Positions 18,560-63,536 of a stretch of 64,000 nucleotides of DNA are shown here, in pieces. The notes beneath the pieces were generated by a model. That model was not told the origin of the DNA, ran no database searches, and saw nothing but the letters and a program-made list of their open reading frames with translations. Made by a program: the position numbers and the translations under genes. Every line of letters begins with the position of its first letter. Position 1 is the stretch's first letter. Origin of the DNA: Mesostigma viride (lineage: Eukaryota > Streptophyta > Mesostigmatophyceae > Mesostigmatales > Mesostigmataceae); NCBI GenBank assembly GCA_009746045.1, contig RPFO01000102.1, positions 183,501 through 247,500 on the forward strand, in the 5' to 3' direction.

Positions 18560-18843
18560 TCGCCCGCGTGGTAAGTTCCCCTGGTGCCTGCCTCAAGAAA
18601 GAGTCAGTCTGAGGAGGTCCACTGAGCGGTCTGCGGCTGTGCCCAGCCAAGTAAACATGTGGATGTGAGGAGGTCCATGCCAGTTGCTCAGTCGAAGAAG
18701 CAGTGCTCTGAGGAATGTCTGAGGACGTTTCCACCGGTGCCGGCCTCAGTTGAAGAAGAACTCGGATAGGCTGGAGGTCTAGTGATGCCCAGTTCCTCAG
18801 TCGAAAAGTACTCTGACTTGAGAGGTCTAGTGGCGCCAGCTCC
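18560..18843 (-). repeat. Decaying tandem copies of the polymerase terminal-exon end
   Basis: On the minus strand, after the stop codon, the CTCAAGTCCGAGTACTTTTT plus in-frame stop region is echoed near 18780-18822, 18735-18765, 18680-18712 and 18585-18612, with increasing mismatches. Each echo retains a (C)TTCTTC(A/G)ACTGAGG-like block. It probably forms the 3' UTR. Confidence 0.7.
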
Positions 18844-18957
18844 TCAATTGAAAAAGTACTCGGACTTGAGCACATCGTTGATGTTCAGTTTTCCCGTCTT
18901 GGGGACGGGGGGGAAATCCCCGATGTCCGGAAATCCCTGCTTGAACTCCTCCAGCAG
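18844..18957 (-). CDS. RNA polymerase terminal exon (residues 1053-1089 and stop)
   Basis: Encodes [20 protein letters not shown] then [17 protein letters not shown], the C-terminal foot whose aromatic end contacts the active site in this family. Acceptor CGTCTGGCAG immediately beside the pentanucleotide array; stop TGA at 18844-18846. Confidence 0.98.
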   Translation of the reverse strand: MLEEFKQGFPDIGDFPPVPKTGKLNINDVLKSEYFFN

Positions 18958-61700: not shown

Positions 61701-63536
61701 CCTTGTGTCATCCACAGCTCCTTGGTTGTAGCCTCAGAACCTACATTTTCCTCATTGGGAACGGGGGGGAGCAGGGTAATCTTCAATCCCAAATCGGTTT
61801 TGGAATCAGGGTAATCTTCGCCTGCAGCTTACACATAGACTACAAGACATGTCCTGTCTTATTCGCGTGTCTAATTTGGTGTCCTGCCCGATTTGCGGCT
61901 TGTACAAAGGCTTCACGCTCACTTTCATGTCCTGTCCGTTCCCATTATTTGCGGCAGAGGTTCCCTGCGATGCTTGTTTGATAAACAACAATAATATAAT
62001 AACAATAGCAATAATGATCATGATAAATATGGGCGTCCTTCATATCTCTCGCCATGGATCATGCAGGGGTGGCCGCCTGTGGCTGTTCTACGCCAAAAGC
62101 GTCCACAAGTGCCGCTATTTCGACCGTCAGAAAAACGTGGTGAGCATCTTATGGCACGCATATGGATGTGGGTATTTATATCACAAAGTTTAAGGATTGT
62201 AATGAACAATTTTTTGGAAACGTATTACACTTGTTTGTCTGGCATAAGAATGCGGTAAAAAGGTTTTTTCCCCCTGCGCTTTGCTACGGCTGCTGCCTTG
62301 CTTAGATATATCTGTTTGTGCATGTCTCTCTGCCTCTGGAGTGCTGCCAGAGGAACCTGGCTGGCGAGCCTTTTTGCTTTTTATTTTGTCTTTATTTATT
62401 TTATTTTATTTTGTCTTTATTTTTTGCCTGAATGCCTGCGTTACTTGTGTGCATCTGTGCCCAGGCGCTTCACATCCACCACAAACTGCCCATACAGTGC
62501 ATTTGTTGGAAAATGCGCCTTGTTTGCCCCCAATTGTGTATCTGGGTTTGTATAGACTACTACGTGCTTGTCTTTCTGCATCGGTTATGTGTATCTGGGT
62601 TTGTATAGATTACTATGTGCTTGTCTTTTTGCATCGGTTATGTGTATCTGGGTTTGTATAGACTACTACGTGCTTGTCTTTTTGCATCGGTTATGTGTAT
62701 CTGGGTTTGTATAGATTACTATGTGCTTGTCTTTTTGCATCGGTTATGTGTATCTGGGTTTGTATAGACTACTACGTGCTTGTCTTTTTGCATCGGTTAT
62801 GTGTATCTGGGTTTGTATAGACTACTACGTGCTTGTCTTTTTGCATCGGCTATGTGTATCTGGGTTTGCATAGATTACTATGTGCTTGTCTTTTTGCATC
62901 CGTTATGTGTATCTGGGTTTGTATATACTACTACGTCCTTGTCTTTTTCACCGCAGTCACCAGCGAAGAACAGAGGGTCCCGGGGGTAGTGCAGACACGC
63001 GTGGCCTAAAGTTAGGGTAGGCATGGCCTTAAGTTAGGGTAGACTTAGCGGCGAACGCATGAGCTTTCACCTAGATAGTCTCGGGGGTAGTGCAGACACG
63101 CGTGGCTTTAAGTTAGGGTAGACTGAGCGGCGAACGCATGAGCTTTCACCTAGATAGTCTCGGGGGTAGTGCAGACACGCGTGGCCTCAAGTTAGGGTAG
63201 ACTGAGCGGCGAACGCATGAGCTTTCACCTAGATAGTCTCGGGGGTAGTGCAGACACGCATGGCCTTAAGTTAGGGTAGACTGAGCGGCGAACGCATGAG
63301 CTTTCACCTAGATAGTCTCGGGGGTAGTGCAGACACGCATGGCCTTACGTTAGGGTAGACTGAGCGGCGAACGCATGAGCTTTCACCTAGATAGAGTGCA
63401 CAGAGGCGTAATTCTTCCAACGCTTCCTCAACGATCTTCCTCCGAATGGGAGGATTATAGTGATTCTTCCACCCCTTCTCTTCTAACTGTTTTCGTACAG
63501 GATGGAATGGGACAGCCAAAATGTGGGTTGTCGGAA
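58624..63536 (+). CDS. Sialidase/BNR-repeat-like protein gene
   Basis: Multi-exon gene divergent from the polymerase. Exons: 58624-58711, 58774-58858, 59352-59461, 60103-60200, 61364-61416, 62067-62139, and weaker 62957-62985 and 63501-63536. Splice phases agree at all seven joins. The N-terminus is hydrophobic (RYALFLFIF, then VFFSLRYLLSLLLS), suggesting a signal anchor. The core reads YAHMGMLEKLSNGSLAA, YYEGSSEQSLYWTTSNDGGE RWGP, GDGVPLWSPVLLSE, GGRLWLFYAKS. SNDGGERW fits the Asp-box (S-x-D-x-G-x-x-W), and the order (HMG...LPDG-like turn, Asp-box, P-W-P-VL, G-LWLFY) follows the sialidase/neuraminidase superfamily six-bladed propeller. Substrate is unknown; the family includes non-sialidase glycosidases. 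The C-terminal blades are missing, so the gene probably continues past the window. Confidence 0.75.
58774..58858 (+). CDS. Sialidase-like exon 2
   Basis: LVFFSLRYLLSLLLSHHVPF then TESNIRY: a probable membrane helix followed by the start of the luminal domain. Acceptor CACACGCAG, donor ACAG/GTGAGG (phase 2). An acceptor-edge copy lies at about 58543. Confidence 0.7.
59352..59461 (+). CDS. Sialidase-like exon 3
   Basis: WLYMINSSAPGPQPLPHLSY then AHMGMLEKLSNGSLAA: the conserved first-blade turn with the HMG-x-(L/I)-x-x-L-x-(D/N)G signature. Acceptor GTTGTGCAG, donor GCAG/GTATGT. Three acceptor-edge copies upstream and one clear donor-edge copy downstream. Confidence 0.82.
59525..59580 (+). repeat. 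Copy of sialidase-like exon 3 donor edge
   Basis: GGAGAAAGCTGCCCAACGAG then GCAGCAGGTAC mirrors the exon end GAAAAGCTGTCCAATGGGTC with its GCAG/GTATG donor, about 120 bp downstream. Confidence 0.8.
60103..60200 (+). CDS. Sialidase-like exon 4 (Asp-box)
   Basis: FQGSPQYYEGSSEQSLYWTT then SNDGGERWGPIQ, containing the Asp-box SNDGGERW. Acceptor CTGGAGCAG after a C-rich tract, donor CAG/GTGCGC. Confidence 0.88.
60287..60472 (+). repeat. (GGGGT)n pentanucleotide array
   Basis: About 37 units on the coding strand, 90 bp into the intron after exon 4; G-quadruplex-prone in the nascent RNA. Confidence 0.97.
60600..60765. repeat. GATA-type repeats
   Basis: CATCG(A)(C/A)ATCG and AGATAGATAGATACAGATAG motifs with duplicated halves. 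Intronic. Confidence 0.8.
61364..61416 (+). CDS. Sialidase-like exon 5
   Basis: LLVAGDGVPLWSPVLLS plus two bases; the PLW-PVL block follows the Asp-box in this family. Acceptor GACCGCCAG, donor CTGA/GTGAGT. Donor-edge copies at 61485-61520 and about 61580. Confidence 0.82.
62067..62139 (+). CDS. Sialidase-like exon 6
   Basis: Completes Glu, then GGRLWLFYAKSVHKCRYFDR QKNV. The G-LWLFY strand is typical. Acceptor ATCATGCAG, donor GTG/GTGAGC. Confidence 0.82.
62520..62940 (+). repeat. ~58-bp minisatellite before exon 7
   Basis: About eight units of TATGTGTATCTGGGTTTGTA plus TAGACTACTACGTGCTTGTC and TTTTTGCATCGGT. The last unit ends in CTTGTCTTTTTCACCGCAG, i.e. the candidate acceptor, so it may be an acceptor-side echo array. 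Confidence 0.95.
62957..62985 (+). CDS. Possible sialidase-like exon 7
   Basis: SPAKNRGSR plus two bases; acceptor TTCACCGCAG, donor GGGG/GTAGTG. Supported mainly by phase and by five downstream copies of its donor edge (63078-63330), not by homology. Confidence 0.4.
62986..63395 (+). repeat. ~85-bp array after exon 7
   Basis: Five units of TCGGGGGTAGTGCAGACACG, TTAAGTTAGGGTAGACTGAG, CGGCGAACGCATGAGCTTTC. Each repeats the CGGGG/GTAGTG donor edge. Confidence 0.95.
63501..63536 (+). CDS. Possible sialidase-like exon 8
   Basis: MEWDSQNVGCR; acceptor TTTCGTACAG, donor GGAA/GTACGT. Phase-compatible but without recognisable family residues. Confidence 0.3.

Follow-up and report, generated by a model that had tools for sequence, protein, structure and literature searches.

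How do introns come to contain copies of the very exon borders at which they begin and end? The question is raised by a stretch of 64,000 nucleotides (contig RPFO01000102.1, positions 183,501 to 247,500; hereafter the window) from the streptophyte alga Mesostigma viride, eukaryotic nuclear DNA of approx. 51% G+C, in which a minus-strand gene predicted to encode a phage-type organellar RNA polymerase (RPOT) and a second, plus-strand gene are broken up by introns. A preliminary description, made from the sequence itself, had proposed that these introns hold 'echoes' (i.e. decaying direct copies) of the adjacent exon boundary, and that the echoes record recurrent tandem duplication anchored at splice junctions. 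Here we confirm the echoes and measure their enrichment at exon edges, a point on which the result is stronger than the preliminary description: in RPOT, the retained duplications whose units exceed 70 bp occur at exon edges with approx. 20 times the density seen inside introns. We attribute them, with a probability of roughly 0.6 for the explanation as a whole, to tandem duplications across exon edges of the type named 'mirages' in amphioxus, occurring in the M. viride nuclear genome and favoured at these edges by a bias in their formation.

Echoes at the exon edges of RPOT

The features of RPOT on which the argument draws are given below (window coordinates; offsets in nt, positive downstream of a donor and negative upstream of an acceptor).

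18844..53370, minus strand: RPOT, phage-type organellar RNA polymerase gene, 24 proposed exons (m1-m24), based on homology and on open frame and splice signals
53117..53286, minus strand: m1 donor 53273 with an echo at +143
52598..53052, minus strand: m2 acceptor 52619 with echoes at -165 and -399
50746..51115, minus strand: m3 donor 51090 with an echo at +330 (82.5% identity), outside the list of the preliminary description and absent from the masked scans
48767..49479, minus strand: m5 acceptor 48808 with echoes at -199, -384 and -479
45632..45958, minus strand: m6 donor 45928 with echoes at +98 and +230
44145..44672, minus strand: m7 donor 44618 with an 83-nt array and older echoes at +284, +384 and +477
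43558..44137, minus strand: m8 acceptor 43571 with an upstream array (units of approx. 96 nt)
43313..43521, minus strand: m8 donor 43510 with echoes at +98 (E 6e-4) and +190 (E 0.09), counted as intron-only in the masked scan
42886..43142, minus strand: m9 acceptor 42897 with a weak echo at -222
42239..42817, minus strand: m9 donor 42777 with a 102-nt array and an older echo at +306
41232..41630, minus strand: m10 donor 41601 with a 93-nt array and an older echo at +362
40461..40839, minus strand: m11 donor 40791 with echoes at +107, +228 and +323
36573..36718, minus strand: m13 donor 36701 with a weak echo at +125
33261..33730, minus strand: m14 donor 33692 with echoes at +133 and +424
32072..32240, minus strand: m15 acceptor 32088 with an echo at -110
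27736..27990, minus strand: m18 donor 27973 with an echo at +203
26787..27697, minus strand: m19 acceptor 27386 with an echo at -237, and m19 donor 27240 with echoes at +270 and +463
24324..24648, minus strand: m21 donor 24622 with an echo at +103
21795..22714, minus strand: m22 donor 22687 with six close copies in 83-nt steps (+83 to +498) and diverged ones at +581 and +888
21110..21245, minus strand: m23 donor 21209 with an echo at +99
18774..18870, minus strand: two 48-nt tandem copies across the RPOT stop codon (ends 18844), the second lying in the 3' flank

An intron-side direct copy was present at all 24 edges named in the preliminary description, holding at least 12 nt of exon at 13 of 13 donors and 6 of 6 acceptors on the minus strand and at 5 of 5 edges on the plus strand; three of the 24 were weak (36701, E 0.005; 42897, 74% identity, E 0.005; 58774, 71% identity, E 0.002). 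When every edge of the RPOT model was considered, echoes were found at 14 of 21 donors, and matches at 9 of 23 acceptors; 15 of the acceptor matches lay upstream (i.e. on the intron side) and 5 downstream, the latter being donor echoes of the short exons m7 and m14. The claim that copies occur exclusively on the intronic side thus stands for the donor matches (34 of 34 downstream of the junction), but has to accommodate two weak exon-interior matches, one in m4 (E 0.002), at a distance of 33-62 nt from the m4 donor, and one in m5 (a GC-rich similarity, E 0.004). Direct orientation was borne out by the inverted-strand control (matches at 1 of 21 donors and 1 of 23 acceptors), and so was the specificity of each family to its own exon, the introns of other exons giving matches in 2 of 120 comparisons for donors and in 5 of 135 for acceptors. 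The middles of exons, proposed earlier as the critical contrast to their edges, matched in 1 of 11 cases, as against 14 of 21 donors. Chance similarity was rejected on these three controls (cross-exon, inverted-strand and exon-middle), and a dispersed repeat, within RPOT, on the cross-exon counts, each family being private to its own edge.

The gene itself was assigned by homology: its predicted product, read from 53370 to 18844, is 38-46% identical to RPOT homologs (among the at least 120 matches listed, which are from land plants where named), and mitochondrial RNA polymerase structures match it at E = 8e-75. No Mesostigma RPOT is present among the matches listed. With 60 of the at least 120 homologs as tblastn queries, a clear match to land-plant RPOT proteins was obtained for 15 of the 24 exons, while exons m8, m10 and m18 are supported by their alignment to mitochondrial RNA polymerases in the structure comparison. 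Of the 20 pairs of neighbouring exons that could be checked, 19 are consistent in phase from donor to acceptor; the sole mismatch (m11-m12) arises because the acceptor initially assigned to m12 was wrong, 38186 being a better one. The model probably lacks short exons in the m11-m12 and m13-m14 intervals.

Density and anatomy of the edge duplications

Random intron points also match often (100 of 300 and 87 of 300, unmasked) because the introns at this locus are rich in tandem repeats, and a stricter, masked test was therefore needed. After masking of arrays with periods up to 70 nt, and with offsets of at least 70 nt, echoes persisted at 13 of 21 donors (the m3 echo being lost) and, on the intron side, at 7 of 23 acceptors, as compared to 118 of 500 random intron points (p = 0.0003 for donors); for 109 of these 118 points, the 500-nt bin in question overlaps a junction family. 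The difference between the donor and acceptor rates yielded p = 0.068.

In order to survey local duplications independently of a given edge, the gene region (53.9-18.4 kb) was scanned in overlapping 120-nt windows with the same masking, at offsets of 70-700 nt, and the matches were clustered into families, an edge family being one in which 12 nt or more belong to an exon edge. The scan recovered 27 families, of which 20 (74%) contain an edge (17/20 at E <= 1e-4), whereas uniform random placement on the same map gave a mean of 3.5 edge families and a maximum of 11 in 4000 trials. The exon list had been settled before the scan (m4 and m17 being there without a donor, the start of m3 approximate and the m12 acceptor wrong), and the placement test made use of the refined list, in which the donors of m4 and m17 are 1-2 bases off. 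The junction families together span approx. 8.1 of the 34.5 kb of RPOT, and the exon content of every match was at most 55 nt. On inspection, three of the seven intron-only families turned out to be exon-related (49704-49553, inside m4; 49085-48870, a stretch that by eye holds an m5 acceptor echo; 43445-43313, the m8 donor echo), and were kept out of the 20 since the reassignment was post hoc. As for the others, 30043-29855 adjoins a GA repeat and 35229-34812 is weak. Two clear intron-only duplications, 29430-29155 and 28319-28177 (offsets of 97 and 164 nt, region 28177-29430), share the m17-m18 intron.

Tandem duplication, as formerly proposed, is upheld in that the copies are of tandem type, direct, derived from their own exon, placed on the non-coding side and concentrated at edges; a rule that sets the breakpoints at splice junctions has only partial support (see below). 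The nearest copies lie mostly 83-143 nt from their source, and their exon parts (12-55 nt) are short for uniform breakpoints (Kolmogorov-Smirnov p = 3e-6, 22 edges). While many echoes are single, diverged copies of approx. 72-90% identity, long-unit arrays of at least 90% identity are found at the junctions of m7, m8, m9, m10 and m22. All copies of m9, of m10 and of m22 start at one exon position each (-41, -30 and -28, respectively), and this common exon-side boundary suggests a single founding duplication per edge, later amplified to an array, which renders doubtful the 'recurrent' duplication of the preliminary description. With regard to homogenisation within clusters, which is a feature of mirages, the picture is mixed: derived changes are shared among the copies of m6, of m7, of m10 and of m22, but neither in m9 nor in the m19 donor pair, and they are lacking in two of three m5 pairs. 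The rise of divergence with distance described earlier amounts to no more than a trend (29 pairs versus 12; 7 of 10 multi-copy families), for which the sign test gave p = 0.34. Mismatches are distributed near-evenly over codon positions 1, 2 and 3 (61/445, 54/444 and 72/442, array copies being counted singly and thus not independent), from which we conclude that the copies evolve without coding constraint, and the retention of a GT in register by 15 of the 24 donor copies examined does not suggest that spare donors are strongly selected, be it positively or negatively.

Origin of the edge bias

According to the explanation that we favour, a segment of typically 80-140 bp (approx. 12-55 nt of exon, the rest intron) would be tandemly duplicated across an exon edge, after which the coding copy would stay in use and the extra copy would end up in the intron and change free of coding constraint, in agreement with the positions, orientation and near-even mismatches described above. 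Some edges would later have been amplified from the founding pair into arrays, as the shared exon-side boundaries of m9, m10 and m22 indicate, and old copies would remain recognisable mainly over the exon and the splice consensus, where the reference is unchanged (an effect partly reproduced by simulation). The bias in formation could stem from breaks, or paired nicks, with ends located within exon edges, the filling-in of which would leave a tandem copy.

An edge copy is compared with a sequence held by selection, and hence stays recognisable for longer than two copies that are both free to drift. Could uniform tandem duplication, together with purifying selection in coding sequence and this slower decay of pairs with one coding copy, produce the observed pattern without any bias? 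Such a process accounts for the intron-side direction, for the scarcity of exon-interior copies and for part of the copy ends at the splice consensus. However, when exon-intron-exon units with a fixed exon were simulated under substitution, indels, deletion and tandem duplication (60-140 bp), uniform duplication placed only 12-28% of families at junctions under seven settings, and 11-26% under three more with very high indel rates, as compared to the 74% observed; among the 100 sets of 23 introns simulated, the top one had 6 of 10 families at junctions. The ratio of the donor echo rate to the random-point rate was 0.40-0.98 in the simulations, against 13/21 over 118/500 in the gene. When junction-spanning duplication was made 10 times likelier the share rose to 40%, and at 20 times to 62% and 69%. 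Within these models, then, the edge excess of families is unexplained by decay: asymmetric decay alone was rejected as the source of the enrichment and kept for part of the sharp copy ends, and the explanation without bias, which we regard as improbable, is disfavoured in this gene.

Alternatively, duplications may arise evenly while those at coding edges last longer, the constant exon copy sustaining homology, re-amplification or gene conversion, and collapses that cross the exon being purged. We consider this unlikely, albeit far from negligible. In its favour, the arrays of m9, m10 and m22 keep the exon-side boundary of their oldest copy, the stop-codon copy involves a coding edge that has no splice site, and the exon part is more diverged than the intron part in the copies closest to m7, m10, m21 and m8 (acceptor), as if an old echo had seeded the amplification; m18 and m15 show the opposite pattern, and no single one of these comparisons reaches p < 0.05. 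Against it, simulations of homology-driven exchange with exon protection put 9-23% of families at junctions under the six settings with at least 28 families remaining, and 0-50% under the six with no more than 15. As a sole cause, homology-driven re-amplification was thus rejected over 12 settings (plus one without exchange), the observed share being unmatched wherever the family number was adequate; arrays collapsed in several of the exchange settings, and the rejection covers only the simulated forms. A selected role of the echoes, as decoy or reserve splice sites or as exon-like elements that assist the splicing of long introns, seems very improbable: the GT held in register by 15 of 24 donor copies and the exon parts of at most 55 nt (as though longer ones were not tolerated) would fit it, but mismatches are spread near-evenly over codon positions, gaps are frequent, the retention of GT is approximately what divergence would predict, and 7 of 21 donors carry no echo in the unmasked junction test. 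Least credible of all is an assembly or sequencing artefact, or a chance likeness of GC-rich edges, for even though some arrays (95-99% identical) could be mis-sized and a few weak families (E ~0.002) could be fortuitous, many echoes are single and well diverged, and the cross-exon controls are close to empty. We lean towards formation over retention because exchange-based retention, as simulated, missed the observed numbers, and because arrays that combine long units with high identity (m7, m8, m9, m10 and m22) are likewise located at edges.

Several observations weigh against biased duplication across exon edges, or narrow its reach. The evidence is drawn from one gene and part of a second, and the placement of six of the 24 RPOT exons (m1, m4, m5, m6, m7 and m11) relies on open frame, splice sites and phase, homologs lending them no individual support, with echoes present at four such edges. 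Without masking, only 12 of 29 families include an edge, since many of the intron-only families are then short-period arrays (plentiful in the introns, and masked in the main scan); we therefore restrict the claim to units above approx. 70 bp. Ten of the 24 donor copies examined have no intron homology past +8 (the remainder have it), and in full-length copies the exon part is generally no less diverged than the intron part (with the exceptions of m18, m15 and one m8 copy), so that a simple rule whereby intron parts decay twice as fast fails. Furthermore, truncated copies are in excess: 16 of 32 donor matches terminate in the interval from -10 to +14 relative to the junction (and some acceptor copies start at -3 to -7), whereas in random-breakpoint simulations 11-47% of donor matches, or 11-26% with a 55-nt exon cap, ended at or before +14. 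The anchoring at splice junctions that had been proposed earlier is in these models explicable in good part, though not clearly in full, by conservation of the reference copy, and a junction-bound copy end may exist beside this effect. The two copies across the stop codon sit at a coding edge that lacks a splice site; therefore the coding edge, rather than the splice site, may be the relevant feature, although this is one case only. Finally, the first 18 kb of the window, which carry retroelement open reading frames (ORFs), yielded two families, both with offsets above 440, and this comparison stretch may simply be young.

Neighbouring sequence, significance and known systems

Echoes are not confined to RPOT. 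The region of the second gene (56-64 kb) contains six families, four of them at proposed exon edges. Edges of this gene that carry echoes are given below.

58967..59398, plus strand: acceptor 59352 with echoes at -111, -211 and -345
59421..59576, plus strand: donor 59461 with an echo at +111
61398..61567, plus strand: donor 61416 with an echo at +94 (edge without homolog support)
62972..63394, plus strand: donor 62985 with a downstream 79-nt array (edge without homolog support)

A tentative product of this gene (167 aa) was assigned to no family by Pfam; two of the exons are supported in part by one protein (P0197; identity 45%, query coverage 68%), and the other exon edges were set by splice signals alone.

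Further repeats and retroelement remnants were noted in the window. Within RPOT, a simple array of AGTAT (x177, 18973-19857) starts 16 nt upstream of acceptor 18957, an AGGGGCA-type array (25946-26627) starts 36 nt upstream of acceptor 25910, a 62-nt minisatellite (16 copies, 97% alike, 36874-37870) is entirely intronic, and an antisense retroelement fragment (50037-50426, plus strand) lies in an intron and by eye resembles an ORF at 11241-11846. In the first 18 kb, a reverse-transcriptase-like ORF (1317-2636, plus strand) has no Pfam match and is 100% identical to M. viride Mesvir1/15504 over 87% of its length; a second, different one (8154-9266, minus strand) matches Pfam RVT_1. Two identical 124-aa ORFs in opposite orientation (2487-2861, minus strand; 17258-17632, plus strand), found by eye near both ends of this stretch, are probably parts of retroelement copies.

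Long introns are often attributed to transposons. In the M. viride genome paper, the passages on introns report that these average 1142 bp, a length linked there to repetitive elements (30.1% of intron space); those passages make no mention of exon-edge echoes. If edge duplications were a further major source of intron sequence, intron growth would become datable edge by edge, one copy being held by selection, and a new question would follow, namely what makes exon borders prone to duplication in an alga as in lancelets. We suggest tentatively, and at less than even odds, that in this genome coding borders are the main sites of long-unit intron growth, where a process or ratchet adds copies of 80-140 bp approx. 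20 times more often than elsewhere and leaves a datable record in each intron.

Introners (i.e. intron-generating transposons) are repeats that add intron sequence, and differ from the echoes in that one family is spread over many introns, whereas each family here is private to one edge (2/120 and 5/135, within RPOT only). The model of Rogers, by which introns are gained through internal duplication of a sequence with AGGT (as cited in PMC3087553), shares with the present case a tandem duplication that carries splice signals; it would place a copy of the upstream exon's end immediately ahead of the next exon, but the copies in RPOT lie within existing introns, 80-900 nt from the edge. The fill-in of breaks with complementary 3' overhangs is a known route to small tandem duplications (PMC8355091), and has these in common with the echoes; a bias towards exon edges is not named in that paper's account of the route.

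The closest likeness is to the mirages of amphioxus, described as minisatellite-like tandem duplications of exon-intron boundaries in the globin genes BflGb6 and BflGb9, in Adh3, troponin C and PGBD5, with units of 10-160 bp at both 5' and 3' boundaries, copies that include AG/GT, and splicing undisturbed (passages of PMC3087553 and PMC3902484). A length that is unstable between haplotypes likewise belongs to the features of mirages. In the open-access literature on green algae or M. viride, boundary minisatellites, intron gain by duplication and mechanisms of tandem duplication, these amphioxus cases were the only ones found, and earlier accounts may exist. As in mirages, the tandem copies in RPOT run across the exon-intron boundary and include exon edge and splice site, both boundary types are affected, and many copies, though not all, keep the splice dinucleotides. 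Unlike the amphioxus cases, they are found in a streptophyte alga, at approx. 20 edges of one gene, in many cases as diverged copies that stand singly and in others as arrays, and with a measured edge bias, all from DNA sequence alone. On these comparisons we class the RPOT echoes as an unusually dense set of mirages in another kingdom, to which the present analysis adds the lineage, the density and the measured bias.

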